DNA of 64,000 nt from Canna indica (taxonomy: Eukaryota; Streptophyta; Magnoliopsida; Zingiberales; Cannaceae). Within the stretch, counting starts at the first letter, position 1. The number at the start of each line of letters is the position of its first letter. The stretch spans positions 48,954,501 to 49,018,500 of the forward strand of contig CP136890.1 of assembly GCA_034359265.1 (NCBI GenBank), in the 5' to 3' direction. The position numbers and the translations under genes are program-made. The notes beneath the pieces are model-generated. The model was not told the origin of the DNA. It saw only the letters and a program-made list of their open reading frames with translations, and did not search any database. Positions 39,885 to 64,000 of the stretch are shown in pieces.

Positions 39885-42800
39885 ACTGTGATGGGAGAAG
39901 TTGATTAATCGAGTTATTTTTGACAGACTAATGCAAAGAATTGCAAGATTTTTCGAATATAATCTTGAACGAAGCCGACTGATTGAACTTCGGGGTATCG
40001 GCTCGAAACGCCCAGCAATCTTTGTCCCAAGCGACTCCAGAACATTCACTGTGATGGGAGAAGTTGTTAATCGAGTTATTTTTGATAGACTAATGCAAAG
40101 AATTGCAAGATTTTTTGAATAGAATCTTGAACGAAGCCGACTGATTGAACTTCGGGGTATCGGCTCGAAACGCCCAGCAATCTGAGTCCCGAGCGACTCC
40201 AGAACATTCACTGTGATGGGAGAAGTTGTCAATCGAGTTACTTTTGATAGACTAATGCAAAGAATTGCAAGATTTTTTGAATAGAATCTTGAACGAAGCC
40301 GACTGATTGAACTTCGGGGTATCGGCTCGAAACGCCCAGCAATCTGAGTCCCGAGCGACTCCAGAACATTCACTGTGATGGGAGAAGTTGTTAATCGAGT
40401 TATTTTTGACAGACTAATGCAAAGAATTGCAAGATTTTTCGAATAGAATCTTGAACAAAGCCGACTGATTGAACATCGGGGTATCGGCTCGAAACGCACA
40501 GCAATCAGAGTCCCGAGCGACTCCAGAACATTCACTGTGATGGGAGAAGTTGTTAATCGAGTTATTTTTGACAGACTAATGCAAAGAATTGCAAGATTTT
40601 TCGAATAAAATCTTGAACGAAGCCGACTGATTGAACTTCGGGGTATGGACTCGAAACGCCCAGCAATCTGAGTCCCGAGCGACTCCAGAACATTCACTGT
40701 GATGGGAGAAGTTGTTAATCGAGTTATTTTTGACAGACTAATGCAAAGAATTGCAAGATTTTTCGAATAGAATCTTCAACGAAGACGACTGATTGAACTT
40801 CGGGGTATCGGCTCGAAACGCACAGCAATCTGAGTCCCGAGCGACTCCAGAACATTCACTGTGATGGGAGAAGTTGTTAATGGAGTTATTTTTGATAGAC
40901 TAATGCATTGAATTACACGGTTTTTCGAACAAAATACTGAACGAAGCCGACTGATTGAACTTCGGTGTATCAGCTCGAAACGCCCGGCAATCTGAGTCCC
41001 GAGCGACTCTAGAACATTCACTGTGATGGGAGAAGTTGTTAATCGAGTTATTTTTGACAGACTAATACAAAGAATTACTCGCTTTTTCGAACAGAATGCT
41101 GAACGAAGCCGACTGATTGAACTTCGGGGTATCGGCTCGAAACGCCCAGCAATCTGAGTCCCGAGCGACTCCAGAACATTCACTGTGATGGGAGAAGTTG
41201 TTAATCGAGTTATTTTTGACAGACTAATGCAAAGAATTGCAAGATTTTTCGAATAGAATCTTGAACGAAGCCGACTGATTGAACTTCGTGGTATCGGCTC
41301 GAAACGCACAGCAATCTGAGTCCCGAGCGACTCCAGAACATTCACTGTGATGGGAGAAGTTGTTAATCGAGTTATTTTTGACAGACTAATGCAAAGAATT
41401 GCAAGATTTTTCGAATAGAATCTTGAACGAATCCGACTGATTGAACTTCAGGGTATCAAATCGAAACGCACAGCAATTTGAGTCCCGGGCGAATCCAGAT
41501 CATTCACTGTGATGGGAGAAGTTGTTAATCGAGTTATTTTTGACAGACTAATGCAAAGAAATTCAAGATTTTTCGAATTGAATCTTGAACGAAGCCGACT
41601 GATTGAACTTCGGGGTATCGGCTCGAAACGCCCAACAATCTGAGTCCCGAGCGACTCCAGAATATTCACTATGATGGGAGAAGTGGTTAATCGAGTTATT
41701 TTTGACAGACTAATGCAAGGAATTGCAAGATTTTTCGAATAGAATCTTGAACGAAGCCGACTTATTGAACTTCGGGGTATCGGCTCGAATCGCTTAGCAA
41801 TCTGAGTCCCGAGCGACTCCAGAACATTCACTGTGATGGGAGAACTTCTTAATCGAGTTATTTTTGACAGACTAATGCAAGGAATTGCAAGATTTTTCGA
41901 ATAGAATCTTGAACGAAGCCGACTTATTGAACTTCGGGGTATCGGCTCGAATCGCTTAGCAATCTGAGTCCCGAGCGACTCCAGAACATTCACTGTGATG
42001 GGAGAACTTCTTAATCGAGTTATTTTTGACCGACTAATGCAAAGAATTACATGCTTTTTCGAACATAATGATGAACGAAGCATACTGAATGAACTTTCGG
42101 GTATCAAATCGAAACGCACAGCAATTTGAGTCACGGGCGAATCCAGATCATTCACTGTGATGGGAGAAGTTGTTAATCGAGTTATTTTTGACAGACTAAT
42201 GCAAAGAAATTCAAGATTTTTCGAATAGAATCTTGAACGAAGCCGACTGATTGAACTTCGGGGTATCGGCTCGAAACGCCCAACAATCTGAGTCCCGAGC
42301 GACTCCAGAATATTCACTATGATGGGAGAAGTGGTTAATCGAGTTATTTTTGACAGACTAATGCAAGGAATTGCAAGATTTTTCGAATAGAATCTTGAAC
42401 GAAGCCGACTTATTGAACTTCGGGGTATCGGCTCGAATCGCTTAGCAATCTGAGTCCCGAGCGACTCCAGAACATTCACTGTGATGGGAGAACTTCTTAA
42501 TCGAGTTATTTTTGACCGACTAATACAAAGAATTACATGCTTTTTCGAACATAATGATGAACGAAGCCTACTGAATGAACTTTCGGGTATCGACTCGAAA
42601 TGACCAGAAATCTGAGTCCCGGGCGACTCCAGAACATTCACTGTGATGGGAGAAGTGGTTAATCGAGTTATTTTTGACAGACTAATGCAAGGAATTGCAA
42701 GATTTTTCGAATAGAATCTTGAACGAAGCCGACTGATTGGACTTCGGGGTATCGGCTCGAATCGCTTAGCAATCTGAGTCCCGAGCGACTCCAGAACATT

Positions 42801-44258
42801 CACTGTGATGGGAGAAGTTCTTAATCGAGTTATTTTTGACCGACTAATGCAAAGAATTACACGCTTTTTCGAACAGAATGATGAACGAAGCCTACTGAAT
42901 GAACTTTCGGGTATCGACTCGAAACGACCAAAAATCTGAGTCCCGGGCGACTCCAGAACATTCACTGTGATGGGAGAAGTTGTTAATCGAGTTATTTTTG
43001 ACCGACTAATGCAAAGAATTGCATGATTTTTCGAATAGAATCTGAACGAATCCGACTGATTGAACTTCAGGGTATCAAATCGAAACGCACAGCAATCTGA
43101 GTCCCGAGCGACTCCAGAACATTCACTGTGATGGGAGAAGTTCTTAATCGAGTTATTTTTGACAGACTAATGCAAAGAATTGCACGATTTTTCGAATAGA
43201 ATGATGAACGAAGCCGACTGATTGAACTTCGGGGTATCGATTCGAAAAGCCCAGCAATCTGAGTCCCGAGCGACTCCAGAACATCCACTGTGATGGGAGA
43301 AGTTGTTAATCGAGTTATTTTTGACAGACTAATGCAAAGAATTGCAAGATTTTTCGAATAGAATCTTGAACGAATCCGACTGATTGAACTTCAGGGTATC
43401 AAATCGAAACGCACAGCAATCTGAGTCCCGAGCGACTCCAGAACATTCACTGTGATGGGAGAAGTTGTTAGTCGAGTTATTTTTGACCGACTAATGCAAA
43501 GAATTACTCGCTTTTTCGAACAGAATGATGAACGAAGCCTACTGAATGAACTTTCGGTTATCGACTCGAAACGACCAGAAATCTGAGTCCCGAGCGACTC
43601 CAGAACATTCACTGTGATGGGAGAAGTTCTTAATCGAGTTATTTTTGACAGACTAATGCAAAGAATTACACGCTTTTTCGAACAGAATGCTGAACGAAGC
43701 CTACTGATTGAACTTTCGGGTATCGACTCGAAACGACCAGAAATCTGAGTCCCGGGCGACTCCAGAACATTCACTGTGATGGGAGAACTTCTTAATCGAG
43801 TTATTTTTGACCGACTAATGCAAAGAATTACACGCTTTTTCGAACAGAATGATGAACGAAGCCTACTGAATGAACTTTCGGGTATCGACTCGAAACGACC
43901 AAAAATCTGAGTCCCGGGCGACTCCAGAACATTCACTGTGATGGGAGAAGTTGTTAATCGAGTTATTTTTGACCGACTAATGCAAAGAATTGCATGATTT
44001 TTCGAATAGAATCTTGAACGAATCCGACTGATTGAACTTCAGGGTATCAAATCGAAACGCACAGCAATCTGAGTCCCGAGCGACTCCAGAACATTCACTG
44101 TGATGGGAGAAGTTCTTAATCGAGTTATTTTTGACAGACTAATGCAAAGAATTGCACGATTTTTCGAATAGAATGATGAACGAAGCCGACTGATTGAACT
44201 TCGGGGTATCGATTCGAAAAGCCCAGCAATCTGAGTCCCGAGCGACTCCAGAACATCC
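39885..44258 (+). repeat. GTTGATTAATCG-bounded interval 1 (27 monomers)
   Basis: Opens with the marker monomer (m1) that holds a 1-bp insertion (GTTGATTAATCG), TCGAATATAATC and ATCTTTGTCCCAAGCG. The next such monomer is 4374 bp later, exactly 27 x 162 because a 1-bp deletion near 43041 cancels the insertion. From here rightward B- and C-type monomers dominate. It contains S copy 2 and the single C monomer near 40.9 kb. Confidence 0.85.
41150..44258 (+). repeat. Segment S, copy 2 (rearranged and longer)
   Basis: Starts like copy 1 (offset 3889 at the D monomer) but holds extra duplicated monomers near 41.8-42.6 kb. It then returns to register at offset 4536, then 4375, then 4374 after a 1-bp deletion (AATCTGAACG near 43041). 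GAGTCACGGGCG near 42128 is private. The right end runs into the GTTGATTAATCG monomer at 44,259. Confidence 0.82.
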
Positions 44259-45879
44259 ACTGTGATGGGAGAAGTTGATTAATCGAGTTATTTTTGACAG
44301 ACTAATGCAAAGAATTGCAAGATTTTTCGAATATAATCTTGAACGAAGCCGACTGATTGAACTTCGGGGTATCGGCTCGAAACGCCCAGCAATCTTTGTC
44401 CCAAGCGACTCCAGAACATTCACTGTGATGGGAGAAGTTGTTAATCGAGTTATTTTTGATAGACTAATGCAAAGAATTGCAAGATTTTTTGAATAGAATC
44501 TTGAACGAAGCCGACTGATTGAACTTCGGGGTATCGGCTCGAAACGCCCAGCAATCTGAGTCCCGAGCGACTCCAGAACATTCACTGTGATGGGAGAAGT
44601 TGTTAATCGAGTTACTTTTGATAGACTAATGCAAAGAATTGCAAGATTTTTTGAATAGAATCTTGAACGAAGCCGACTGATTGAATTTCGGGGTATCGGC
44701 TCGAAACGCCCAGCAATCTGAGTCCCGAGCGACTCCAGAACATTCACTGTGATGGGAGAAGTTGTTAATCGAGTTATTTTTGACAGACTAATGCAAAGAA
44801 TTGCAAGATTTTTCGAATAGAATCTTGAACGAAGCCGACTGATTGAACTTCGGGGTATCGGCTCGAAACGCACAGCAATCTGAGTCCCGAGCGACTCCAG
44901 AACATTCACTGTGATGGGAGAAGTTGTTAATGGAGTTATTTTTGATAGACTAATGCATTGAATTACACGGTTTTTCGAACAAAATACTGAACGAAGCCGA
45001 CTGATTGAACTTCGGTGTATCAGCTCGAAACGCCCGGCAATCTGAGTCCCGAGCGACTCTAGAACATTCACTGTGATGGGAGAAGTTGTTAATCGAGTTA
45101 TTTTTGACAGACTAATACAAAGAATTACTCGCTTTTTCGAACAGAATGCTGAACGAAGCCGACTGATTGAACTTCGGGGTATCGGCTCGAAACGCACAGC
45201 AATCTGAGTCCCGAGCGACTCCAGAACATTCACTGTGATGGGAGAAGTTGTTAATCGAGTTATTTTTGACAGACTAATGCAAAGAATTACACGCTTTTTC
45301 GAACAGAATGCTGAACGAAGCCTACTGATTGAACTTTCGGGTATCGACTCGAAACGACCAGAAATCTGAGTCCCGGGCGACTCCAGAAAATTCACTGTGA
45401 TGGGAGAACTTCTTAATCGAGTTATTTTTGACCGACTAATGCAAAGAATTACACGCTTTTTCGAACAGAATGATGAACGAAGCCTACTGAATGAACTTTC
45501 GGGTATCGACTCGAAACGTCCAAAAATCTGAGTCCCGGGCGACTCCAGAACATTCACTGTGATGGGAGAAGTTGTTAATCGAGTTATTTTTGACCGACTA
45601 ATGCAAAGAATTGCATGATTTTTCGAATAGAATCTTGAACGAATCCGACTGATTGAACTTCAGGGTATCAAATCGAAACGCACAGCAATCTGAGTCCCGA
45701 GCGACTCCAGAACATTCACTGTGATGGGAGAAGTTCTTAATCGAGTTATTTTTGACAGACTAATGCAAAGAATTGCACGATTTTTCGAATAGAATGATGA
45801 ACGAAGCCGACTGATTGAACTTCGGGGTATCGATTCGAAAAGCCCAGCAATCTGAGTCCCGAGCGACTCCAGAACATCC
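44259..45879 (+). repeat. GTTGATTAATCG-bounded interval 2 (10 monomers)
   Basis: Ten monomers plus the 1-bp insertion (1621 bp). The order m1, T6-tract monomer, GTTACTTTTGATAG monomer, B, single C, then GACAGACTAATACAA and A-type monomers is related to the right-end HOR, but C is not yet paired. Private change: CAGAAAATTCAC near 45384. Confidence 0.85.
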
Positions 45880-48800
45880 ACTGTGATGGGAGAAGTTGAT
45901 TAATCGAGTTATTTTTGACAGACTAATGCAAAGAATTGCAAGATTTTTCGAATATAATCTTGAACGAAGCCGACTGATTGAACTTCGGAGTATCGGCTCG
46001 AAACGCCCAGCAATCTTTGTCCCAAGCGACTCCAGAACATTCACTGTGATGGGAGAAGTTGTTAATCGAGTTATTTTTGATAGACTAATGCAAAGAATTG
46101 CAAGATTTTTTGAATAGAATCTTGAACGAAGCCGACTGATTGAACTTCGGGGTATCGGCTCGAAACGCCCAGCAATCTGAGTCCCGAGCGACTCCAGAAC
46201 ATTCACTGTGATGGGAGAAGTTGTTAATCGAGTTACTTTTGATAGACTAATGCAAAGAATTGCAAGATTTTTTGAATAGAATCTTGAACGAAGCCGACTG
46301 ATTGAACTTCGGGGTATCGGCTCGAAACGCCCAGCAATCTGAGTCCCGAGCGACTCCAGAACATTCACTGTGATGGGAGAAGTTGTTAATCGAGTTATTT
46401 TTGACAGACTAATGCAAAGAATTGCAAGATTTTTCGAATAGAATCTTGAACAAAGCCGACTGATTGAACATCGGGGTATCGATTCGAAAAGCCCAGCAAT
46501 CTGAGTCCCGAGCGACTCCAGAACATCCACTGTGATGGGAGAAGTTGTTAATCGAGTTATTTTTGACAGACTAATGCAAAGAATTGCAAGATTTTTCGAA
46601 TAGAATCTTCAACGAAGACGACTGATTGAATTTCGGGGTATCGGCTCGAAACGCCCAGCAATCTGAGTCCCGAGCGACTCCAGAACATTCACTGTGATGG
46701 GAGAAGTTGTTAATCGAGTTATTTTTGACAGACTAATGCAAAGAATTGCAAGATTTTTCGAATAGAATCTTGAACGAAGCCGACTGATTGAATTTCGGGG
46801 TATCGGCTCGAAACGCACAGCAATCTGAGTCCCGAGCGACTCCAGAACATTCACTGTGATGGGAGAAGTTGTTAATGGAGTTATTTTTGATAGACTAATG
46901 CATTGAATTACACGGTTTTTCGAACAAAATACTGAACGAAGCCGACTGATTGAACTTCGGTGTATCAGCTCGAAACGCCCGGCAATCTGAGTCCCGAGCG
47001 ACTCTAGAACATTCACTGTGATGGGAGAAGTTGTTAATCGAGTTATTTTTGACAGACTAATACAAAGAATTACTCGCTTTTTCGAACAGAATGCTGAACG
47101 AAGCCGACTGATTGAACTTCGGGGTATCGGCTCGAAACGCACAGCAATCTGAGTCCCGAGCGACTCCAGAACATTCACTGTGATGGGAGAAGTTGTTAAT
47201 CGAGTTATTTTTGACAGACTAATGCAAAGAATTACTCGCTTTTTCGAACAGAATGCTGAACGAAGCCGACTGATTGAACTTCGGGGTATCGGCTCGAAAC
47301 GCCCAGCAATCTGAGTCCCGAGCGACTCCAGAACATTCACTGTGATGGGAGAACTTCTTAATCGAGTTATTTTTGACAGACTAATGCAAGGAATTGCAAG
47401 ATTTTTCGAATAGAGTCTTGAACGAAGCCGACTTATTGAACTTCGGGGTATCGGCTCGAATCGCTTAGCAATCTGAGTCCCGAGCGACTCCAGAACATTC
47501 ACTGTGATGGGAGAACTTCTTAATCGAGTTATTTTTGACCGACTAATGCAAAGAATTACATGCTTTTTCGAACATAATGATGAACGAAGCCTACTGAATG
47601 AACTTTCGGGTATCAAATCGAAACGCACAGCAATTTGAGTCCCGGGCGAATCCAGATCATTCACTGTGATGGGAGAAGTTGTTAATCGAGTTATTTTTGA
47701 CAGACTAATGCAAAGAAATTCAAGATTTTTCGAATAGAATCTTGAACGAAGCCGACTGATTGAACTTCGGGGTATCGGCTCGAAACGCCCAACAATCTGA
47801 GTCCCGAGCGACTCCAGAATATTCACTATGATGGGAGAAGTGGTTAATCGAGTTATTTTTGACAGACTAATGCAAAGAATTGCAAGATTTTTCGAATAAA
47901 ATCTTGAACGAAGCCGACTGATTGAACTTCGGGGTATGGACTCGAAACGCCCAGCAATCTGAGTCCCGAGCGACTCCAGAACATTCACTGTGATGGGAGA
48001 AGTTGTTAATCGAGTTATTTTTGACAGACTAATGCAAAGAATTGCAAGATTTTTCGAATAGAATCTTCAACGAAGACGACTGATTGAATTTCGGGGTATC
48101 GGCTCGAAACGCCCAGCAATCTGAGTCCCGAGCGACTCCAGAACATTCACTGTGATGGGAGAAGTTGTTAATCGAGTTATTTTTGACAGACTAATGCAAA
48201 GAATTGCAAGATTTTTCGAATAGAATCTTGAATGAAGCCGACTGATTGAACTTCGGGGTATCGGCTCGAAACGCACAGCAATCTGAGTCCCGAGCGACTC
48301 CAGAACATTCACTGTGATGGGAGAAGTTGTTAATGGAGTTATTTTTGATAGACTAATGCATTGAATTACACGGTTTTTCGAACAAAATACTGAACGAAGC
48401 CGACTGATTGAACTTCGGTGTATCAGCTCGAAACGCCCGGCAATCTGAGTCCCAAGCGACTCTAGAACATTCACTGTGATGGGAGAAGTTGTTAATCGAG
48501 TTATTTTTGACAGACTAATACAAAGAATTACTCGCTTTTTCGAACAGAATGCTGAACGAAGCCGACTGATTGAACTTCGGGGTATCGGCTCGAAACGCAC
48601 AGCAATCTGAGTCCCGATCGACTCCAGAACATTCACTGTGATGGGAGAAGTTGTTAATCGAGTTATTTTTGACAGACTAATGCAAAGAATTACTCGCTTT
48701 TTCGAACAGAATGCTGAACGAAGCCGACTGATTGAACTTCGGGGTATCGGCTCGAAACGCCCAGCAATCTGAGTCCCGAGCGACTCCAGAACATTCACTG

Positions 48801-51800
48801 TGATGGGAGAAGTTGTTAATCGAGTTATTTTTGACAGACTAATGCAAAGAATTGCAAGATTTTTCGAATAAAATCTTGAACGAAGCCGACTGATTGAACT
48901 TCGGGGTATCGGCTCGAAACGCCCAGCAATCTGAGTCCCGAGCGACTCCAGAACATTCACTGTGATGGGAGAAGTTGTTAATCGAGTTACTTTTGATAGA
49001 CTAATGCAAAGAATTGCAAGATTTTTTGAATAGAATCTTCAACGAAGACGACTGATTGAATTTCGGTGTATCAGCTCGAAACGCCCGGCAATCTGAGTCC
49101 CGAGCGACTCTAGAACATTCACTGTGATGGGAGAAGTTGTTAATCGAGTTATTTTTGACAGACTAATACAAAGAATTACTCGCTTTTTCGAACAGAATGC
49201 TGAACGAAGCCGACTGATTGAACTTCGGGGTATCGGCTCGAAACGCACAGCAATCTGAGTCCCGAGCGACTCCAGAACATTCACTGTGATGGGAGAAGTT
49301 GTTAATCGAGTTATTTTTGACAGACTAATGCAAAGAATTACTCGCTTTTTCGAACAGAATGCTGAACGAAGCCGACTGATTGAACTTCGGGGTATCGGCT
49401 CGAAACGCCCAGCAATCTGAGTCCCGAGCGACTCCAGAACATTCACTGTGATGGGAGAAGTTGTTAATCGAGTTATTTTTGACAGACTAATGCAAAGAAT
49501 TGCAAGATTTTTCGAATAAAATCTTGAACGAAGCCGACTGATTGAACTTCGGGGTATCGGCTCGAAACGCCCAGCAATCTGAGTCCCGAGCGACTCCAGA
49601 ACATTCACTGTGATGGGAGAAGTTGTTAATCGAGTTACTTTTGATAGACTAATGCAAAGAATTGCAAGATTTTTCGAATAGAATCTTCAACGAAGACGAC
49701 TGATTGAATTTCGGGGTATCGGCTCGAAACGCCCAGCAATCTGAGTCCCGAGCGACTCCAGAACATTCACTGTGATGGGAGAAGTTGTTAATCGAGTTAT
49801 TTTTGACAGACTAATGCAAAGAATTGCAAGATTTTTTGAATAGAATCTTGAACGAAGCCGACTGATTGAACTTCGGGGTATCGGCTCGAAACGCACAGCA
49901 ATCTGAGTCCCGAGCGACTCCAGAACATTCACTGTGATGGGAGAAGTTGTTAATGGAGTTATTTTTGATAGACTAATGCATTGAATTACACGGTTTTTCG
50001 AACAAAATACTGAACGAAGCCGACTGATTGAACTTCGGTGTATCAGCTCGAAACGCCCGGCAATCTGAGTCCCGAGCGACTCTAGAACATTCACTGTGAT
50101 GGGAGAAGTTGTTAATCGAGTTATTTTTGACAGACTAATACAAAGAATTACTCGCTTTTTCGAACAGAATGCTGAACGAAGCCGACTGATTGAACTTCGG
50201 GGTATCGGCTCGAAACGCACAGCAATCTGAGTCCCGAGCGACTCCAGAACATTCACTGTGATGGGAGAAGTTGTTAATCGAGTTATTTTTGACAGACTAA
50301 TGCAAAGAATTACTCGCTTTTTCGAACAGAATGCTGAACGAAGCCGACTGATTGAACTTCGGGGTATCGGCTCGAAACGCCCAGCAATCTGAGTCCCGAG
50401 CGACTCCAGAACATTCACTGTGATGGGAGAAGTTGTTAATCGAGTTATTTTTGACAGACTAATGCAAAGAATTGCAAGATTTTTCGAATAAAATCTTGAA
50501 CGAAGCCGACTGATTGAACTTCGGGGTATCGGCTCGAAACGCCCAGCAATCTGAGTCCCGAGCGACTCCAGAACATTCACTGTGATGGGAGAAGTTGTTA
50601 ATCGAGTTATTTTTGACAGACTAATGCAAAGAATTGCAAGATTTTTCGAATAAAATCTTGAACGAAGCCGACTGATTGAACTTCGGGGTATCGGCTCGAA
50701 ACGCACAGCAATCTGAGTCCCGAGCGACTCCAGAACATTCACTGTGATGGGAGAAGTTGTTAATGGAGTTATTTTTGATAGACTAATGCATTGAATTACA
50801 CGGTTTTTCGAACAAAATACTGAACGAAGCCGACTGATTGAACTTCGGTGTATCAGCTCGAAACGCCCGGCAATCTGAGTCCCGAGCGACTCTAGAACAT
50901 TCACTGTGATGGGAGAAGTTGTTAATCGAGTTATTTTTGACAGACTAATACAAAGAATTACTCGCTTTTTCGAACAGAATGCTGAACGAAGCCGACTGAT
51001 TGAACTTCGGGGTATCGGCTCGAAACGCACAGCAATCTGAGTCCCGAGCGACTCCAGAACATTCACTGTGATGGGAGAAGTTGTTAATCGAGTTATTTTT
51101 GACAGACTAATGCAAAGAATTACTCGCTTTTTCGAACAGAATGCTGAACGAAGCCGACTGATTGAACTTCGGGGTATCGGCTCGAAACGCCCAGCAATCT
51201 GAGTCCCGAGCGACTCCAGAACATTCACTGTGATGGGAGAACTTCTTAATCGAGTTATTTTTGACAGACTAATGCAAGGAATTGCAAGATTTTTCGAATA
51301 GAGTCTTGAACGAAGCCGACTTATTGAACTTCGGGGTATCGGCTCGAATCGCTTAGCAATCTGAGTCCCGAGCGACTCCAGAACATTCACTGTGATGGGA
51401 GAACTTCTTAATCGAGTTATTTTTGACCGACTAATGCAAAGAATTGCAAGATTTTTCGAATAGAATCTTGAACGAAGCCGACTGATTGAACTTCGGGGTA
51501 TCGGCTCGAAACGCACAGCAATCTGAGTCCCGAGCGACTCCAGAACATTCACTGTGATGGGAGAAGTTGTTAATGGAGTTATTTTTGACAGACTAATGCA
51601 AAGAATTGCAAGATTTTTCGAATAGAATCTTGAACAAAGCCGACTGATTGAACATCGGGGTATCGGCTCGAAACGCACAGCAATCTGAGTCCCGAGCGAC
51701 TCCAGAACATTCACTGTGATGGGAGAAGTTGTTAATCGAGTTATTTTTGACAGACTAATGCAAAGAATTGCAAGATTTTTCGAATAAAATCTTGAACGAA

Positions 51801-54800
51801 GCCGACTGATTGAACTTCGGGGTATGGACTCGAAACGCCCAGCAATCTGAGTCCCGAGCGACTCCAGAACATTCACTGTGATGGGAGAAGTTGTTAATCG
51901 AGTTATTTTTGACAGACTAATGCAAAGAATTGCAAGATTTTTCGAATAGAATCTTCAACGAAGACGACTGATTGAATTTCGGGGTATCGGCTCGAAACGC
52001 CCAGCAATCTGAGTCCCGAGCGACTCCAGAACATTCACTGTGATGGGAGAAGTTGTTAATCGAGTTATTTTTGACAGACTAATGCAAAGAATTGCAAGAT
52101 TTTTCGAATAGAATCTTGAACGAAGCCGACTGATTGAACTTCGGGGTATCGGCTCGAAACGCACAGCAATCTGAGTCCCGAGCGACTCCAGAACATTCAC
52201 TGTGATGGGAGAAGTTGTTAATGGAGTTATTTTTGATAGACTAATGCATTGAATTACACGGTTTTTCGAACAAAATACTGAACGAAGCCGACTGATTGAA
52301 CTTCGGTGTATCAGCTCGAAACGCCCGGCAATCTGAGTCCCGAGCGACTCTAGAACATTCACTGTGATGGGAGAAGTTGTTAATCGAGTTATTTTTGACA
52401 GACTAATACAAAGAATTACTCGCTTTTTCGAACAGAATGCTGAACGAAGCCGACTGATTGAACTTCGGGGTATCGGCTCGAAACGCCCAGCAATCTGAGT
52501 CCCGAGCGACTCCAGAACATTCACTGTGATGGGAGAAGTTGTTAATCGAGTTATTTTTGACAGACTAATGCAAAGATTTGCAAGATTTTTCGAATAGAAT
52601 CTTGAACGAAGCCGACTGATTGAACTTCGTGGTATCGGCTCGAAACGCACAGCAATCTGAGTCCCGAGCGACTCCAGAACATTCACTGTGATGGGAGAAG
52701 TTGTTAATCGAGTTATTTTTGACAGACTAATGCAAAGAATTGCAAGATTTTTCGAATAGAATCTTGAACGAATCCGACTGATTGAACTTCAGGGTATCAA
52801 ATCGAAACGCACAGCAATTTGAGTCCCGGGCGAATCCAGATCATTCACTGTGATGGGAGAAGTTGTTAATCGAGTTATTTTTGACAGACTAATGCAAAGA
52901 AATTCAAGATTTTTCGAATAGAATCTTGAACGAAGCCGACTGATTGAACTTCGGGGTATCGGCTCGAAACGCCCAACAATCTGAGTCCCGAGCGACTCCA
53001 GAATATTCACTATGATGGGAGAAGTGGTTAATCGAGTTATTTTTGACAGACTAATGCAAGGAATTGCAATATTTTTCGAATAGAATCTTGAACGAAGCCG
53101 ACTTATTGAACTTCGGGGTATCGGCTCGAATCGCTTAGCAATCTGAGTCCCGAGCGACTCCAGAACATTCACTGTGATGGGAGAACTTCTTAATCGAGTT
53201 ATTTTTGACCGACTAATGCAAAGAATTACATGCTTTTTCGAACATAATGATGAACGAAGCCTACTGAATGAACTTTCGGGTATCGACTCGAAATGACCAG
53301 AAATCTGAGTCCCGGGCGACTCCAGAACATTCACTGTGATGGGAGAAGTGGTTAATCGAGTTATTTTTGACAGACTAATGCAAGGAATTGCAAGATTTTT
53401 CGAATAGAATCTTGAACGAAGCCGACTGATTGAACTTCGGGGTATCGGCTCGAATCGCTTAGCAATCTGAGTCCCGAGCGACTCCAGAACATTCACTGTG
53501 ATGGGAGAAGTTCTTAATCGAGTTATTTTTGACAGACTAATGCAAAGAATTACACGCTTTTTCGAACAGAATGCTGAACGAAGCCTACTGATTGAACTTT
53601 CGGGTATCGACTCGAAACGACCAGAAATCTGAGTCCCGGGCGACTCCAGAACATTCACTGTGATGGGAGAACTTCTTAATCGAGTTATTTTTGACCGACT
53701 AATGCAAAGAATTACACGCTTTTTCGAACAGAATGATGAACGAAGCCTACTGAATGAACTTTCGGGTATCGACTCGAAACGACCAAAAATCTGAGTCCCG
53801 GGCGACTCCAGAACATTCACTGTGATGGGAGAAGTTGTTAATCGAGTTATTTTTGACCGACTAATGCAAAGAATTGCATGATTTTTCGAATAGAATCTTG
53901 AACGAATCCGACTGATTGAACTTCAGGGTATCAAATCGAAACGCACAGCAATCTGAGTCCCGAGCGACTCCAGAACATTCACTGTGATGGGAGAAGTTCT
54001 TAATCGAGTTATTTTTGACAGACTAATGCAAAGAATTGCACGATTTTTCGAATAGAATGATGAACGAAGCCGACTGATTGAACTTCGGGGTATCGATTCG
54101 AAAAGCCCAGCAATCTGAGTCCCGAGCGACTCCAGAACATCCACTGTGATGGGAGAAGTTGTTAATCGAGTTATTTTTGACAGACTAATGCAAAGAATTG
54201 CAAGATTTTTCGAATAGAATCTTGAACGAATCCGACTGATTGAACTTCAGGGTATCAAATCGAAACGCACAGCAATCTGAGTCCCGAGCGACTCCAGAAC
54301 ATTCACTATGATGGGAGAAGTTGTTAGTCGAGTTATTTTTGACCGACTAATGCAAAGAATTACTCGCTTTTTCGAACAGAATGATGAACGAAGCCTACTG
54401 AATGAACTTTCGGTTATCGACTCGAAACGACCAGAAATCTGAGTCCCGAGCGACTCCAGAACATTCACTGTGATGGGAGAAGTTCTTAATCGAGTTATTT
54501 TTGACAGACTAATGCAAAGAATTACACGCTTTTTCGAACAGAATGCTGAACGAAGCCTACTGATTGAACTTTCGGGTATCGACTCGAAACGACCAGAAAT
54601 CTGAGTCCCGGGCGACTCCAGAACATTCACTGTGATGGGAGAACTTCTTAATCGAGTTATTTTTGACCGACTAATGCAAAGAATTACACGCTTTTTCGAA
54701 CAGAATGATGAACGAAGCCTACTGAATGAACTTTCGGGTATCGACTCGAAACGACCAAAAATCTGAGTCCCGGGCGACTCCAGAACATTCACTGTGATGG

Positions 54801-54952
54801 GAGAAGTTGTTAATCGAGTTATTTTTGACCGACTAATGCAAAGAATTGCACGATTTTTCGAATAGAATGATGAACGAAGCCGACTGATTGAACTTCGGGG
54901 TATCGATTCGAAAAGCCCAGCAATCTGAGTCCCGAGCGACTCCAGAACATCC
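45880..54952 (+). repeat. GTTGATTAATCG-bounded interval 3 (56 monomers)
   Basis: 9073 bp, exactly 56 monomers plus 1 bp. It contains a B/C-rich stretch in which the marker AATCTTCAACGAAGACG recurs near 46,606, 48,064, 49,036, 49,684 and 51,952. The spacings are whole monomers (9, 6, 4 and 14). Single C monomers fall at spacings of 9, 10, 5, 5 and 4 monomers. The stretch ends in S copy 3. Length changes here are by whole monomers only. Confidence 0.85.
52490..54849 (+). repeat. Segment S, copy 3
   Basis: Matches copy 1 at an offset of 15,230 bp (94 monomers plus 2 bp) from about 52,490 until 54,850, where ATTGCATGATTTTTCG gives way to ATTGCACGATTTTTCG. Private changes seen: AAAGATTTGCAAG near 52572, GCAATATTTTTCG near 53067 and CACTATGATGGG near 54304. 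Confidence 0.82.
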
Positions 54953-55439
54953 ACTGTGATGGGAGAAGTTGATTAATCGAGTTATTTTTGACAGACTAAT
55001 GCAAAGAATTGCAAGATTTTTCGAATATAATCTTGAACGAAGCCGACTGATTGAACTTCGGGGTATCGGCTCGAAACGCCCAGCAATCTTTGTCCCAAGC
55101 GACTCCAGAACATTCACTGTGATGGGAGAAGTTGTTAATCGAGTTATTTTTGATAGACTAATGCAAAGAATTGCAAGATTTTTTGAATAGAATCTTGAAC
55201 GAAGCCGACTGATTGAACTTCGGGGTATCGGCTCGAAACGCCCAGCAATCTGAGTCCCGAGCGACTCCAGAACATTCACTGTGATGGGAGAAGTTGTTAA
55301 TCGAGTTACTTTTGATAGACTAATGCAAAGAATTGCAAGATTTTTTGAATAGAATCTTGAACGAAGCCGACTGATTGAATTTCGGGGTATCGGCTCGAAA
55401 CGCCCAGCAATCTGAGTCCCGAGCGACTCCAGAACATTC

Positions 55440-55601
55440 ACTGTGATGGGAGAAGTTGTTAATCGAGTTATTTTTGACAGACTAATGCAAAGAATTGCAA
55501 GATTTTTCGAATAGAATCTTGAACGAAGCCGACTGATTGAACTTCGGGGTATCGGCTCGAAACGCACAGCAATCTGAGTCCCGAGCGACTCCAGAACATT
55601 C
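55440..55601 (+). repeat. Representative B-type monomer (162 bp)
   Basis: B-type diagnostic sites: GACAGACTAATGC, AATTGCAAGA, TTCGAATAGAATCTTG, GAAGCCGACTGATTG, CTTCGGGGTATCGGCTCG, CGCACAGC or CGCCCAGC, and CCCGAGCGACTCC. This copy matches my eye consensus throughout. B is about 44% GC with 10 CpG sites. It holds two short dyads: GAGTC-N6-GACTC at monomer positions 137-152, and AGCCGA-N19-TCGGCT at 88-118. A-type lacks the second dyad. B-type dominates the right third of the window. Confidence 0.92.
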
Positions 55602-55925
55602 ACTGTGATGGGAGAAGTTGTTAATGGAGTTATTTTTGATAGACTAATGCATTGAATTACACGGTTTTTCGAACAAAATACTGAACGAAGCCGACTGATT
55701 GAACTTCGGTGTATCAGCTCGAAACGCCCGGCAATCTGAGTCCCGAGCGACTCTAGAACATTCACTGTGATGGGAGAAGTTGTTAATGGAGTTATTTTTG
55801 ATAGACTAATGCATTGAATTACACGGTTTTTCGAACAAAATACTGAACGAAGCCGACTGATTGAACTTCGGTGTATCAGCTCGAAACGCCCGGCAATCTG
55901 AGTCCCGAGCGACTCTAGAACATTC
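55602..55925 (+). repeat. C-type monomer pair (2 x 162 bp)
   Basis: Two adjacent C-type monomers, seemingly identical. C-type marks are GTTAATGGAG in place of GTTAATCGAG, GATAGACTAATGCATTGAA, TTACACGGTTTTTCG, GAACAAAATACTG, CTTCGGTGTATCAGCTCG, CGCCCGGC and GACTCTAGAAC. Single C monomers lie near 40.9, 44.9, 46.9, 48.3, 50.0, 50.8 and 52.2 kb. From 55.6 kb rightward C always appears as a tandem pair (about 56.9, 58.4, 60.2, 61.6 and 63.1 kb), so pairing is a feature of the right-end HOR. Confidence 0.9.
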
Positions 55926-56087
55926 ACTGTGATGGGAGAAGTTGTTAATCGAGTTATTTTTGACAGACTAATGCAAAGAATTGCACGATTTTTCGAATAG
56001 AATGATGAACGAAGCCGACTGATTGAACTTCGGGGTATCGATTCGAAAAGCCCAGCAATCTGAGTCCCGAGCGACTCCAGAACATCC

Positions 56088-57384
56088 ACTGTGATGGGAG
56101 AAGTTGATTAATCGAGTTATTTTTGACAGACTAATGCAAAGAATTGCAAGATTTTTCGAATATAATCTTGAACGAAGCCGACTGATTGAACTTCGGGGTA
56201 TCGGCTCGAAACGCCCAGCAATCTTTGTCCCAAGCGACTCCAGAACATTCACTGTGATGGGAGAAGTTGTTAATCGAGTTATTTTTGATAGACTAATGCA
56301 AAGAATTGCAAGATTTTTTGAATAGAATCTTGAACGAAGCCGACTGATTGAACTTCGGGGTATCGGCTCGAAACGCCCAGCAATCTGAGTCCCGAGCGAC
56401 TCCAGAACATTCACTGTGATGGGAGAAGTTGTTAATCGAGTTATTTTTGACAGACTAATGCAAAGAATTGCAAGATTTTTCGAATAAAATCTTGAACGAA
56501 GCCGACTGATTGAACTTCGGGGTATCGGCTCGAAACGCCCAGCAATCTGAGTCCCGAGCGACTCCAGAACATTCACTGTGATGGGAGAAGTTGTTAATCG
56601 AGTTACTTTTGATAGACTAATGCAAAGAATTGCAAGATTTTTTGAATAGAATCTTGAACGAAGCCGACTGATTGAATTTCGGGGTATCGCCTCGAAACGC
56701 CCAGCAATCTGAGTCCCGAGCGACTCCAGTACATTCACTGTGATGGGAGAAGTTGTTAATCGAGTTATTTTTGACAGACTAATGCAAAGAATTGCAAGAT
56801 TTTTCGAATAGAATCTTGAACGAAGCCGACTGATTGAACTTCGGGGTATCGGCTCGAAACGCACAGCAATCTGAGTCCCGAGCGACTCCAGAACATTCAC
56901 TGTGATGGGAGAAGTTGTTAATGGAGTTATTTTTGATAGACTAATGCATTGAATTACACGGTTTTTCGAACAAAATACTGAACGAAGCCGACTGATTGAA
57001 CTTCGGTGTATCAGCTCGAAACGCCCGGCAATCTGAGTCCCGAGCGACTCTAGAACATTCACTGTGATGGGAGAAGTTGTTAATGGAGTTATTTTTGATA
57101 GACTAATGCATTGAATTACACGGTTTTTCGAACAAAATACTGAACGAAGCCGACTGATTGAACTTCGGTGTATCAGCTCGAAACGCCCGGCAATCTGAGT
57201 CCCGAGCGACTCTAGAACATTCACTGTGATGGGAGAAGTTGTTAATCGAGTTATTTTTGACAGACTAATGCAAAGAATTGCACGATTTTTCGAATAGAAT
57301 GATGAACGAAGCCGACTGATTGAACTTCGGGGTATCGATTCGAAAAGCCCAGCAATCTGAGTCCCGAGCGACTCCAGAACATCC
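56088..57384 (+). repeat. Right-end HOR, 8-monomer unit (1297 bp)
   Basis: Like the preceding 7-mer with one monomer added between m2 and m4: m3, marked by TCGAATAAAATC. Private changes are ATCGCCTCG near 56688 and CTCCAGTACATTC near 56727. B is still the single monomer before the C pair. Confidence 0.9.
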
Positions 57385-58843
57385 ACTGTGATGGGAGAAG
57401 TTGATTAATCGAGTTATTTTTGACAGACTAATGCAAAGAATTGCAAGATTTTTCGAATATAATCTTGAACGAAGCCGACTGATTGAACTTCGGGGTATCG
57501 GCTCGAAACGCCCAGCAATCTTTGTCCCAAGCGACTCCAGAACATTCACTGTGATGGGAGAAGTTGTTAATCGAGTTATTTTTGATAGACTAATGCAAAG
57601 AATTGCAAGATTTTTTGAATAGAATCTTGAACGAAGCCGACTGATTGAACTTCGGGGTATCGGCTCGAAACGCCCAGCAATCTGAGTCCCGAGCGACTCC
57701 AGAACATTCACTGTGATGGGAGAAGTTGTTAATCGAGTTATTTTTGACAGACTAATGCAAAGAATTGCAAGATTTTTCGAATAAAATCTTGAACGAAGCC
57801 GACTGATTGAACTTCGGGGTATCGGCTCGAAACGCCCAGCAATCTGAGTCCCTAGCGACTCCAGAACATTCACTGTGATGGGAGAAGTTGTTAATCGAGT
57901 TACTTTTGATAGACTAATGCAAAGAATTGCAAGATTTTTTGAATAGAATCTTGAACGAAGCCGACTGATTGAACTTCGGGGTATCGGCTCGAAACGCACA
58001 GCAATCTGAGTCCCGAGCGACTCCAGAACATTCACTGTGATGGGAGAAGTTGTTAATCGAGTTATTTTTGACAGACTAATGCAAAGAATTGCAAGATTTT
58101 TCGAATAGAATCTTGAACGAATCCGACTGATTGAACTTCAGGGTATCAAATCGAAACGCACAGCAATTTGAGTCCCGGGCGAATCCAGATCATTCACTGT
58201 GATGGGAGAAGTTGTTAATCGAGTTATTTTTGACAGACTAATGCAAAGAAATTCAAGATTTTTCGAATAGAATCTTGAACGAAGCCGACTGATTGAACTT
58301 CGGGGTATCGGCTCGAAACGCACAGCAATCTGAGTCCCGAGCGACTCCAGAACATTCACTGTGATGGGAGAAGTTGTTAATGGAGTTATTTTTGATAGAC
58401 TAATGCATTGAATTACACGGTTTTTCGAACAAAATACTGAACGAAGCCGACTGATTGAACTTCGGTGTATCAGCTCGAAACGCCCGGCAATCTGAGTCCC
58501 GAGCGACTCTAGAACATTCACTGTGATGGGAGAAGTTGTTAATGGAGTTATTTTTGATAGACTAATGCATTGAATTACACGGTTTTTCGAACAAAATACT
58601 GAACGAAGCCGACTGATTGAACTTCGGTGTATCAGCTCGAAACGCCCGGCAATCTGAGTCCCGAGCGACTCTAGAACATTCACTGTGATGGGAGAAGTTG
58701 TTAATCGAGTTATTTTTGACAGACTAATGCAAAGAATTGCACGATTTTTCGAATAGAATGATGAACGAAGCCGACTGATTGAACTTCGGGGTATCGATTC
58801 GAAAAGCCCAGCAATCTGAGTCCCGAGCGACTCCAGAACATCC
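57385..58843 (+). repeat. Right-end HOR, 9-monomer unit 1 (1459 bp)
   Basis: m1, m2, m3, m4, m5, m6, C, C, m9. The single B of the 8-mer is replaced by two monomers: m5 (D-type, CAATTTGAGTCCCGGG) and m6 (AAATTCAAG). Both match the opening of segment S. m3 now carries GAGTCCCTAGCG, a mark kept in all later units. Confidence 0.92.
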
Positions 58844-60626
58844 ACTGTGATGGGAGAAGTTGATTAATCGAGTTATTTTTGACAGACTAATGCAAAGAAT
58901 TGCAAGATTTTTCGAATATAATCTTGAACGAAGCCGACTGATTGAACTTCGGGGTATCGGCTCGAAACGCCCAGCAATCTTTGTCCCAAGCGACTCCAGA
59001 ACATTCACTGTGATGGGAGAAGTTGTTAATCGAGTTATTTTTGATAGACTAATGCAAAGAATTGCAAGATTTTTTGAATAGAATCTTGAACGAAGCCGAC
59101 TGATTGAACTTCGGGGTATCGGCTCGAAACGCCCAGCAATCTGAGTCCCGAGCGACTCCAGAACATTCACTGTGATGGGAGAAGTTGTTAATCGAGTTAT
59201 TTTTGACAGACTAATGCAAAGAATTGCAAGATTTTTCGAATAAAATCTTGAACGAAGCCGACTGATTGAACTTCGGGGTATCGGCTCGAAACGCCCAGCA
59301 ATCTGAGTCCCTAGCGACTCCAGAACATTCACTGTGATGGGAGAAGTTGTTAATCGAGTTATTTTTGATAGACTAATGCAAAGAATTGCAAGATTTTTTG
59401 AATAGAATCTTGAACGAAGCCGACTGATTGAACTTCGGGGTATCGGCTCGAAACGCCCAGCAATCTGAGTCCCGAGCGACTCCAGAACATTCACTGTGAT
59501 GGGAGAAGTTGTTAATCGAGTTATTTTTGACAGACTAATGCAAAGAATTGCAAGATTTTTCGAATAAAATCTTGAACGAAGCCGACTGATTGAACTTCGG
59601 GGTATCGGCTCGAAACGCCCAGCAATCTGAGTCCCTAGCGACTCCAGAACATTCACTGTGATGGGAGAAGTTGTTAATCGAGTTACTTTTGATAGACTAA
59701 TGCAAAGAATTGCAAGATTTTTTGAATAGAATCTTGAACGAAGCCGACTGATTGAACTTCGGGGTATCGGCTCGAAACGCACAGCAATCTGAGTCCCGAG
59801 CGACTCCAGAACATTCACTGTGATGGGAGAAGTTGTTAATCGAGTTATTTTTGACAGACTAATGCAAAGAATTGCAAGATTTTTCGAATAGAATCTTGAA
59901 CGAATCCGACTGATTGAACTTCAGGGTATCAAATCGAAACGCACAGCAATTTGAGTCCCGGGCGAATCCAGATCATTCACTGTGATGGGAGAAGTTGTTA
60001 ATCGAGTTATTTTTGACAGACTAATGCAAAGAAATTCAAGATTTTTCGAATAGAATCTTGAACGAAGCCGACTGATTGAACTTCGGGGTATCGGCTCGAA
60101 ACGCACAGCAATCTGAGTCCCGAGCGACTCCAGAACATTCACTGTGATGGGAGAAGTTGTTAATGGAGTTATTTTTGATAGACTAATGCATTGAATTACA
60201 CGGTTTTTCGAACAAAATACTGAACGAAGCCGACTGATTGAACTTCGGTGTATCAGCTCGAAACGCCCGGCAATCTGAGTCCCGAGCGACTCTAGAACAT
60301 TCACTGTGATGGGAGAAGTTGTTAATGGAGTTATTTTTGATAGACTAATGCATTGAATTACACGGTTTTTCGAACAAAATACTGAACGAAGCCGACTGAT
60401 TGAACTTCGGTGTATCAGCTCGAAACGCCCGGCAATCTGAGTCCCGAGCGACTCTAGAACATTCACTGTGATGGGAGAAGTTGTTAATCGAGTTATTTTT
60501 GACAGACTAATGCAAAGAATTGCACGATTTTTCGAATAGAATGATGAACGAAGCCGACTGATTGAACTTCGGGGTATCGATTCGAAAAGCCCAGCAATCT
60601 GAGTCCCGAGCGACTCCAGAACATCC
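58844..60626 (+). repeat. Right-end HOR, 11-monomer unit (1783 bp)
   Basis: The 9-mer with m2-m3 present twice. GATTTTTTGAATAG followed by TCGAATAAAATC and CCCTAGCG appears near 59,060-59,310 and again near 59,390-59,640. This is a dimer duplication inside one unit, probably a recent exchange because both flanking units are plain 9-mers. Confidence 0.92.
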
Positions 60627-62085
60627 ACTGTGATGGGAGAAGTTGATTAATCGAGTTATTTTTGACAGACTAATGCAAAGAATTGCAAGATTTTTCGAAT
60701 ATAATCTTGAACGAAGCCGACTGATTGAACTTCGGGGTATCGGCTCGAAACGCCCAGCAATCTTTGTCCCAAGCGACTCCAGAACATTCACTGTGATGGG
60801 AGAAGTTGTTAATCGAGTTATTTTTGATAGACTAATGCAAAGAATTGCAAGATTTTTTGAATAGAATCTTGAACGAAGCCGACTGATTGAACTTCGGGGT
60901 ATCGGCTCGAAACGCCCAGCAATCTGAGTCCCGAGCGACTCCAGAACATTCACTGTGATGGGAGAAGTTGTTAATCGAGTTATTTTTGACAGACTAATGC
61001 AAAGAATTGCAAGATTTTTCGAATAAAATCTTGAACGAAGCCGACTGATTGAACTTCGGGGTATCGGCTCGAAACGCCCAGCAATCTGAGTCCCTAGCGA
61101 CTCCAGAACATTCACTGTGATGGGAGAAGTTGTTAATCGAGTTACTTTTGATAGACTAATGCAAAGAATTGCAAGATTTTTTGAATAGAATCTTGAACGA
61201 AGCCGACTGATTGAACTTCGGGGTATCGGCTCGAAACGCACAGCAATCTGAGTCCCGAGCGACTCCAGAACATTCACTGTGATGGGAGAAGTTGTTAATC
61301 GAGTTATTTTTGACAGACTAATGCAAAGAATTGCAAGATTTTTCGAATAGAATCTTGAACGAATCCGACTGATTGAACTTCAGGGTATCAAATCGAAACG
61401 CACAGCAATTTGAGTCCCGGGCGAATCCAGATCATTCACTGTGATGGGAGAAGTTGTTAATCGAGTTATTTTTGACAGACTAATGCAAAGAAATTCAAGA
61501 TTTTTCGAATAGAATCTTGAACGAAGCCGACTGATTGAACTTCGGGGTATCGGCTCGAAACGCACAGCAATCTGAGTCCCGAGCGACTCCAGAACATTCA
61601 CTGTGATGGGAGAAGTTGTTAATGGAGTTATTTTTGATAGACTAATGCATTGAATTACACGGTTTTTCGAACAAAATACTGAACGAAGCCGACTGATTGA
61701 ACTTCGGTGTATCAGCTCGAAACGCCCGGCAATCTGAGTCCCGAGCGACTCTAGAACATTCACTGTGATGGGAGAAGTTGTTAATGGAGTTATTTTTGAT
61801 AGACTAATGCATTGAATTACACGGTTTTTCGAACAAAATACTGAACGAAGCCGACTGATTGAACTTCGGTGTATCAGCTCGAAACGCCCGGCAATCTGAG
61901 TCCCGAGCGACTCTAGAACATTCACTGTGATGGGAGAAGTTGTTAATCGAGTTATTTTTGACAGACTAATGCAAAGAATTGCACGATTTTTCGAATAGAA
62001 TGATGAACGAAGCCGACTGATTGAACTTCGGGGTATCGATTCGAAAAGCCCAGCAATCTGAGTCCCGAGCGACTCCAGAACATCC
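60627..62085 (+). repeat. Right-end HOR, 9-monomer unit 2 (1459 bp)
   Basis: Same order and marks as the 9-mer at 57,385. I saw no difference from the next unit apart from one base noted there. Confidence 0.92.
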
Positions 62086-63544
62086 ACTGTGATGGGAGAA
62101 GTTGATTAATCGAGTTATTTTTGACAGACTAATGCAAAGAATTGCAAGATTTTTCGAATATAATCTTGAACGAAGCCGACTGATTGAACTTCGGGGTATC
62201 GGCTCGAAACGCCCAGCAATCTTTGTCCCAAGCGACTCCAGAACATTCACTGTGATGGGAGAAGTTGTTAATCGAGTTATTTTTGATAGACTAATGCAAA
62301 GAATTGCAAGATTTTTTGAATAGAATCTTGAACGAAGCCGACTGATTGAACTTCGGGGTATCGGCTCGAAACGCCCAGCAATCTGAGTCCCGAGCGACTC
62401 CAGAACATTCACTGTGATGGGAGAAGTTGTTAATCGAGTTATTTTTGACAGACTAATGCAAAGAATTGCAAGATTTTTCGAATAAAATCTTGAACGAAGC
62501 CGACTGATTGAACTTCGGGGTATCGGCTCGAAACGCCCAGCAATCTGAGTCCCTAGCGACTCCAGAACATTCACTGTGATGGGAGAAGTTGTTAATCGAG
62601 TTACTTTTGATAGACTAATGCAAAGAATTGCAAGATTTTTTGAATAGAATCTTGAACGAAGCCGACTGATTGAACTTCGGGGTATCGGCTCGAAACGCAC
62701 AGCAATCTGAGTCCCGAGCGACTCCAGAACATTCACTGTGATGGGAGAAGTTGTTAATCGAGTTATTTTTGACAGACTAATGCAAAGAATTGCAAGATTT
62801 TTCGAATAGAATCTTGAACGAATCCGACTGATTGAACTTCAGGGTATCAAATCGAAACGCACAGCAATTTGAGTCCCGGGCGAATCCAGATCATTCACTG
62901 TGATGGGAGAAGTTGTTAATCGAGTTATTTTTGACAGACTAATGCAAAGAAATTCAAGATTTTTCGAATAGAATCTTGAACGAAGCCGACTGATTGAACT
63001 TCGGGGTATCGGCTCGAAACGCACAGCAATCTGAGTCCCGAGCGACTCCAGAACATTCACTGTGATGGGAGAAGTTGTTAATGGAGTTATTTTTGATAGA
63101 CTAATGCATTGAATTACACGGTTTTTCGAACAAAATACTGAACGAAGCCGACTGATTGAACTTCGGTGTATCAGCTCGAAACTCCCGGCAATCTGAGTCC
63201 CGAGCGACTCTAGAACATTCACTGTGATGGGAGAAGTTGTTAATGGAGTTATTTTTGATAGACTAATGCATTGAATTACACGGTTTTTCGAACAAAATAC
63301 TGAACGAAGCCGACTGATTGAACTTCGGTGTATCAGCTCGAAACGCCCGGCAATCTGAGTCCCGAGCGACTCTAGAACATTCACTGTGATGGGAGAAGTT
63401 GTTAATCGAGTTATTTTTGACAGACTAATGCAAAGAATTGCACGATTTTTCGAATAGAATGATGAACGAAGCCGACTGATTGAACTTCGGGGTATCGATT
63501 CGAAAAGCCCAGCAATCTGAGTCCCGAGCGACTCCAGAACATCC
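62086..63544 (+). repeat. Right-end HOR, 9-monomer unit 3 (1459 bp)
   Basis: Offset 1459 bp from the previous unit. The one difference I located is CGAAACTCCCGG near 63,183 (CGAAACGCCCGG elsewhere), in the first C monomer. This low divergence points to the most recently homogenised part of the window. Confidence 0.92.
62735..62896 (+). repeat. Representative D-type monomer (162 bp, CTTCAGGG variant)
   Basis: D-type has a B-like left half, then GAATCCGACTGATTG, CTTCAGGGTATCAAATCG, CGCACAGCAATTTGAG and CCCGGGCGAATCCAGATC. The G-to-A change in CTTCAGGG creates a TGA in the otherwise open reverse frame. This is why reverse-strand frames end at regular places throughout the array. D-like monomers recur within each HOR (monomer 3 of the 1449-bp unit, monomer 5 of the 1459-bp unit), so they act as unit markers. 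Confidence 0.85.
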
Positions 63545-64000
63545 ACTGTGATGGGAGAAGTTGATTAATCGAGTTATTTTTGACAGACTAATGCAAAGAA
63601 TTGCAAGATTTTTCGAATATAATCTTGAACGAAGCCGACTGATTGAACTTCGGGGTATCGGCTCGAAACGCCCAGCAATCTTTGTCCCAAGCGACTCCAG
63701 AACATTCACTGTGATGGGAGAAGTTGTTAATCGAGTTATTTTTGATAGACTAATGCAAAGAATTGCAAGATTTTTTGAATAGAATCTTGAACGAAGCCGA
63801 CTGATTGAACTTCGGGGTATCGGCTCGAAACGCCCAGCAATCTGAGTCCCGAGCGACTCCAGAACATTCACTGTGATGGGAGAAGTTGTTAATCGAGTTA
63901 TTTTTGACAGACTAATGCAAAGAATTGCAAGATTTTTCGAATAAAATCTTGAACGAAGCCGACTGATTGAACTTCGGGGTATCGGCTCGAAACGCCCAGC
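63545..64000 (+). repeat. Right-end HOR, next unit cut by window end
   Basis: Holds m1, m2 and most of m3 (TCGAATAAAATC near 63,938) in the usual order before the window stops. The HOR therefore continues to the right, and its copy number is unknown. Confidence 0.92.

Follow-up and report, generated by a model that had tools for sequence, protein, structure and literature searches.

Can a higher-order repeat (HOR) be caught while the length of its unit is still changing, and does the order of its units along the DNA then tell the order of the changes? The question is raised by the right-hand part of a 64-kb stretch of the Canna indica genome (C1:48954501-49018500; henceforth the window), which consists throughout of a single tandem satellite (162-bp monomer) and in which a first-pass annotation took a row of units of changing size for an apparent record of HOR growth. 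Our findings favour, at a probability of roughly 0.6, a young and small HOR island, made up of eight units plus a stub, that lies inside an older, megabase-scale satellite block and whose units changed by piece-copying events. The row of units along the DNA is not a sequence in time, and the history of the array holds both gains and losses.

Cutting the window at a conserved anchor gave 395 pieces, the last clipped at the window edge, of which 202 are distinct; adjoining monomers differ in 16.4 alignment columns on average. Monomers were numbered as exact classes (c5, c6 and so on), those of the right part being listed as differences from the 162-bp consensus, and units are written as strings of class numbers, so that 5-6-26 stands for c5-c6-c26. 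The units are bounded by the marker GTTGATTAATCG, which carries an extra A after monomer position 20, tags monomer c5 and its relative c31 (one single-nucleotide polymorphism, SNP, away) and occurs ten times in the window, with 0.02 occurrences expected by chance. Seven of these markers, from 54968 to 63560, are spaced 1135, 1297, 1459, 1783, 1459 and 1459 bp apart, which corresponds to 7, 8, 9, 11, 9 and 9 monomers; a second anchor gives the same counts, and the sizes reported in the first-pass annotation are exact. The array begins as follows.

54790..54951, plus strand: c55, the left flank of the array, which from diagnostic variants looks like a hybrid of a c3 head and a c4 tail
54952..56086, plus strand: unit 1, the 7-mer 5-6-26-27-11-11-56, cut at monomer starts
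56087..57383, plus strand: unit 2, the 8-mer 5-6-43-57-27-11-11-56, cut at monomer starts
57384..58842, plus strand: unit 3, the 9-mer 5-6-58-59-14-60-11-11-56, cut at monomer starts
58843..60625, plus strand: unit 4, the 11-mer 5-6-58-6-58-59-14-60-11-11-56, which is unit 3 with 6-58 doubled (one junction, no mismatch)
60626..62084, plus strand: unit 5, a 9-mer and 1459-bp exact match to unit 3
62085..63543, plus strand: unit 6, on comparison of units a 9-mer with one SNP (c61)

Wherever units 1-6 share c5, c6, c11 and c56 these monomers are identical, bar the one SNP of c61, which identifies the row as a HOR array. Between the 7-mer and the 8-mer, c43 is gained along with two private SNPs (c57), and between the 8-mer and the 9-mer c43 is changed to c58 (one SNP), c57 to c59, and c27 is replaced by c14 and c60. 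The content steps proposed earlier thus hold in outline, the added third monomer being c43, the new block c14 and c60, and the duplication c6-c58; that each step is a single change does not, given the SNPs and replacements that go with the first two.

We also read beyond the window and added 80 kb on the left and 120 kb on the right, so that 264 kb were read in all, with the join confirmed by a locus spanning the window end. The array continues with three further members.

63544..65164 (L009:1164), plus strand, 1621 bp: unit 7, the 10-mer 5-6-58-6-58-14-60-11-385-56, which crosses the window end at 64000
65165..66461, plus strand, 1297 bp, outside the window: unit 8, the 8-mer 5-6-43-59-386-387-13-388
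66462..67272, plus strand: the stub, a ninth copy of five monomers (5-6-43-59-386), which runs into monomers of the right neighbourhood

The last marker stands at 66478 and the array ends near 67.3 kb, which makes an island of 12.3 kb (54952-67272) and a full series of 7, 8, 9, 11, 9, 9, 10 and 8 monomers plus the stub. The 264 kb hold 12 exact markers, all on the plus strand and between 39900 and 66478, with just three (39900, 44274, 45895) outside the array. All unit lengths (1135, 1297, 1459, 1783, 1459, 1459, 1621 and 1297 bp) equal n x 162 + 1, so that the units differ by whole monomers, as structural variants (StVs) of a HOR do. By class order the eight units have six make-ups, and seven are distinct as sequences; no unit prevails through many repeats, the commonest (the 9-mer) being present three times among the eight. 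Within the 264 kb, c58 and c60 are found just in units 3-7, and c59 just in units 3-6, unit 8 and the stub.

Plain 9-mers, which had been expected to continue to the right, are thus not what follows, and the supposed growth record breaks at its right end on an 8-mer of different make-up. Nor is the 11-mer a single stage in the row, its duplication being common to units 4 and 7, and this also rules out that it is a private oddity. Could the odd sizes be errors of an assembly that mis-joined near-identical units? Units 3 and 5, identical over 1459 bp, are of a sequence type prone to copy loss and gain. The odd-sized units, however, each have internal junctions of their own, the island is just 12.3 kb long, the genome (753 Mb) comes in 9 contigs and the 264 kb contain no N, all of which makes mis-joining a most improbable source of the series.

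To trace where the units got their monomers, the following features are needed.

44258..45093, plus strand: outgroup copy, 5-6-26-27-11 and 25 bp of c28, an 836-bp maximal exact match to 54952-55787 (unit 1)
48715..49039, plus strand: candidate c43 donor (c36 tail, c43, c44 head), with the longest match, 325 bp and exact, to 56331-56655 (unit 2)
52631..52972, plus strand: candidate donor of the c14-c60 block (c50 tail, c14, c19 head), with the longest match, 342 bp and exact, to 57980-58321
55925..56086, plus strand: c56, a boundary hybrid with a c12/c28-type head and a c4/c55-type tail, composed of two outside blocks without mismatch, the switch lying between monomer positions 21 and 48

For each unit we sought the fewest junctions and mismatches that assemble it from other units or from outside blocks. 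Unit 1 is obtained from outside sequence with two junctions (three blocks), no mismatch and no new base. Unit 2 takes two junctions and 2 mismatches from unit 1 plus an upstream donor, the two SNPs of c57 being private to it. Its c43 is identical to three upstream monomers (as c26 is to one), and shorter donor matches exist at 49363-49674 and 50335-50609; the 48715-49039 candidate is thus not unique, and the junction fit chose 40508-40608 at an equal mismatch count. That c43 arose by a one-junction duplication of c6 with added SNPs is less likely, with 5 mismatches as opposed to 2 for two junctions and a donor, and with c43 present three times upstream. With nothing but units 1 and 2 to draw on, unit 3 costs 16 mismatches at one junction, 14 at two and 12 at three, as against 2 mismatches and two junctions from unit 2 plus an upstream block, and it is for this reason that unit 3 needs an outside block. 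The next match to that block (37401-37740, 340 bp) is the place that the junction fit picked. Units 3 and 4 can each be derived from the other with one junction and no mismatch; unit 7, which is the 11-mer minus c59, takes one junction and 1 mismatch from unit 4, or two junctions and 1 mismatch from unit 3.

Some of these fits allow a different account, in which two founders, a left type (5-6-26-27-11-11-56) and a right type (5-6-43-59-386-387-13-388), gave rise to units 2-7 as recombinants with one captured block; unit 2 would then be no intermediate, and the order 7-8-9 no growth series. Unit 2 indeed equals unit 8 up to position 401 followed by unit 1, at one junction and 2 mismatches where upstream insertion needs two junctions, and unit 3 can be made from the start of unit 8, the upstream block and the end of unit 1 (two junctions, 1 mismatch). 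In addition, c43 and the 11-11-56 end occur in every one of their four combinations once the outgroup is counted. What speaks against this account is that the left type has its 836-bp exact outside copy, while for the right type no outside copy was found in a genome search that scored just 40 of 2638 candidates, the best match to c59-386-387 outside the array being 97%. Moreover, building unit 8 out of nothing but the fetched flanks requires five junctions and leaves four mismatches; with units 1-3 allowed, it still takes three junctions at a cost of five mismatches, or four of each. To our minds, two founders are a serious contender, albeit a rather unlikely one.

Which way did the units change? 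The root was provided by the copy at 44258 together with the remaining c6 copies outside the array. The 264 kb have 19 c6 monomers, 11 in the array and 8 outside, and while c43 or its relative c58 stands after c6 in every unit except unit 1, none of the eight outside copies precedes either (three are followed by c7, c26 or c32), so that c43 after c6 looks derived. This, the 836-bp outside match of unit 1 and the poor fit of the 9-mer without a donor all favour additions, and c43 (the added third monomer), the block matching 52631-52972 and the two-monomer duplication were probably gained. To this extent the direction proposed in the first-pass annotation is supported; a steady series is not, the 10-mer being an 11-mer that lacks c59.

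The annotation had also named the case that would count against it, namely that the 7- and 8-mers derive from the 9-mer by deletion; more broadly, short units would have shrunk out of a longer one. For the 8-mer, one deletion from unit 3 leaves 5 mismatches, 2 of them private to unit 2; the other 3 are positions at which unit 2 agrees with upstream c43 or c26. That c43 and c26 have those exact upstream copies (three and one) and that c58 and c59 are array-only within the 264 kb likewise argues against shrinkage, and the same insertions would have been required to build a long unit to begin with. The 7-mer is a different matter: one deletion turns unit 2 into unit 1 with just 2 mismatches, the private SNPs of c57, so the direction between 7 and 8 depends on the outgroup. 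The 7-mer could hence be a pre-SNP 8-mer minus c43, an option that the outgroup alone counters. Unit 7, too, is best read as a loss, and in the same interval the upstream layer, 5-6-7-8-9-10-11 at 39884 versus 5-6-26-27-11 at 44258, suggests by its sequence that it shrank, with c26 looking like a c7/c34 hybrid. As a general direction, we nonetheless regard shrinkage as improbable.

Consistent with a largely ordered history, a four-gamete test of eight hand-coded unit characters, rooted on the 44258 copy and with unit 7 left without a state for c59, passes 25 of the 28 character pairs. Several points weigh against our reading of an island altered by successive piece-copying, however. The 3 pairs that fail all involve the 11-11-56 end, in that units 8 and 9 (the latter being the stub) have c43 without this end and unit 1 has the end without c43; the unit types must therefore have undergone exchange or replacement at least once. 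Nine versus eleven monomers is not polarised by sequence, there being no mismatch either way, and the one-junction recombinant of units 8 and 1 accounts for unit 2 at 2 mismatches too. An outside c43 donor is not strictly needed either, as unit 1 alone yields unit 2 with 5, 3 and 2 mismatches at one, two and three junctions. Finally, the characters are few, and the unit order is known from the assembly alone. As for the incompatible pairs, either the 11-11-56 end went missing from the right-end units as these became joined to the right flank, or unit 2 and the units that came after it recombine the left and right types; we lean to the former because an exact outside copy was found for the left type and none for the right in the search that scored 40 of 2638 candidates.

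From unit contents, hybrids, matching blocks and mismatch counts we infer an order of events, candidate donors and a mechanism for the piece-copying island. Segment 5-6-26-27-11 would have been duplicated in tandem through an out-of-register exchange, in which the monomer following c11 recombined with the one preceding c5 to leave the boundary hybrid c56, and c11 would have doubled. Copying of c43 behind c6 would then have given the 8-mer, copying of the c14 block from the neighbouring older stretch, together with the c43-to-c58 SNP, the 9-mer, duplication of 6-58 the 11-mer, and the dropping of c59 from one 11-mer-type unit the 10-mer. At the right end, units have c43 and c59 but none of the later changes, and they pass into right-flank monomers. 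Both edges of the array would accordingly keep states older than those of the middle units. As the mechanism, unequal exchange may be envisaged, or else the copying of short patches while a break is repaired. This invites the tentative idea, which we consider possible rather than probable, that a newborn HOR lengthened its unit by capturing roughly monomer-sized blocks from adjacent older satellite, while its left and right edges kept the precursors in an inside-out layering at eight units.

In line with such exchanges, the array contains fused monomers of the kind known from StVs: c388 is, like c56, an exact two-part hybrid of outside blocks without mismatch, and c55 and c60 are read as hybrids from diagnostic variants. 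A hybrid scan of 63 classes (monomers 230-393), which counts just those at least 3 sites away from their nearest relative, found four such classes, three of them exact two-parent hybrids; the mean was 0.07 hybrids with columns permuted, a loose control given how much more widely the permuted sets scatter.

Unit size often varies in this satellite, and the side-by-side mix of sizes is not the rarity that it was taken for. Outside the array, the 264 kb have 14 anchor pairs with at least three successive spacings of 3-15 monomers, which reduce to 7 distinct lists, and 6 of the 7 are of mixed size. Pair c164-c165 in the window shows successive spacings of 11, 9, 7, 9, 9 and 7, then 29 monomers, and bounds the units (11, 9, 7, 9, 9 and 7 monomers) of a second HOR region at 22724-32594 (monomers 140-200). 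There, a 9+7+9 stretch of 25 monomers that starts at 24505 recurs from 28550 with 20 of the 25 monomers in the same exact class. Copy pairs that have exact two-monomer flanks, diverge and then resynchronise number 41 in the window, 35 of them wholly left of the array; the net change is one monomer in 6 pairs and two monomers in 10. Short variable units around c28-c36, with spacings of 13, 6 and 5 monomers, lie at window 47014-51225, the part that holds the three upstream c43 copies. A local periodicity of 115 bp (shortened monomers) was seen at window 13275-13501 and 18230-18454.

The satellite also carries inserts. Two of these, L025:1957-5743 and L024:90-3876 (window coordinates -48043 and -39910), each lie in a 3787-bp anchor gap, are 8.1 kb apart and differ at 2 positions; the one scanned contains an open reading frame for RVT_1 and zf-RVT domains and looks plant-like, and the pair resembles one insert of the long interspersed nuclear element (LINE) type that was duplicated with its satellite surroundings. 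Another, in a 6564-bp anchor gap from L018:8633 to about 5196 of L019, has a reading frame matching DUF4283.

As to the wider setting, C1 was sampled in twenty 3-kb pieces, and the satellite family is strong in all 15 taken from 47.0 to 50.0 Mb, weak in the one at 50.2 Mb and absent from those at 46.0, 50.5, 51 and 52 Mb; C1 measures 103.6 Mb, which puts the samples mid-way, and satellite matches are also present on C3 and C7. By position and scale, this megabase-scale block in mid-chromosome resembles a putative centromere satellite. In the 3-kb samples the satellite runs on the minus strand at 49.2-49.6 Mb, on the plus strand on either side and on the minus strand again in the weak 50.2-Mb sample; strand switches fall at 49.14-49.2 Mb and at 49.6-49.8 Mb, which would fit the inversion of a block several hundred kb long. 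Searches of the window against Rfam and for tRNAs gave no matches, and the CENP-B box core TTCGNNNNANNCGGG has no exact match in it (0.64 expected). An exact 37-base pattern had no match in collections of genome and viral contigs, which may lack the source genome itself. A literature search on 162-bp satellites with HOR terms turned up no paper on this satellite, which says little for a search run without the organism name. Melon CmSat162 is ruled out as the same repeat, since neither of the two published primers in the available text of PMC6964814 matches the window at up to 3 mismatches.

How does the island compare with known systems? According to the parts of PMC9549924 available to us, all human HORs have StVs, usually explained as insertions or deletions of whole monomers, and hybrid monomers in human HORs are described there and in the available part of PMC8336445. 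The Canna units likewise differ by whole monomers and contain fused ones. Unlike human alpha satellite, however, the Canna satellite has a 162-bp monomer, no exact match to that CENP-B box core in the window and no dominant unit, and its island is made of just eight units with the longest-matching candidate donors within 8 kb. On human chromosome 5 (D5Z2), four- and six-monomer variants derive, probably by repeated deletions, from a ten-monomer HOR at the array edge, as far as the accessible text of PMC11062924 goes; an ancestral form at the edge and derived forms inside are features the two systems share, whereas most of the inferred Canna steps lengthen the unit and one is a loss. Similarly, in layered, expanding centromere arrays the youngest sequence sits in the core (PMC9549924 and PMC11062924, same parts), and the Canna edge units carry older states than the middle, yet such arrays span hundreds of kb, as against 12 kb and eight units for this island, which has neighbourhoods of its own satellite on both sides. 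Brachypodium centromere satellites also have highly variable HOR block sizes; theirs is a different satellite, and an event order by unit does not appear in the available text of PMC10910784. Our literature search on HOR expansion by insertion found no paper.

The type of change is thus already known, and the Canna case lets it be followed event by event. How a HOR starts and how its unit length changes is as a rule deduced from large, homogenised arrays that no longer preserve the early stages. In this case the island, both flanks, the outgroup copy and the candidate donors lie within about 30 kb, and each event can therefore be written down and checked in other individuals. A tidy series at a window edge can mislead, as about 3 kb more sequence turned a growth ramp into a two-sided mosaic. 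If block capture is true, inside-out layering would already be in place at eight units, and would have come about by lengthening rather than by the deletion reported for human D5Z2.

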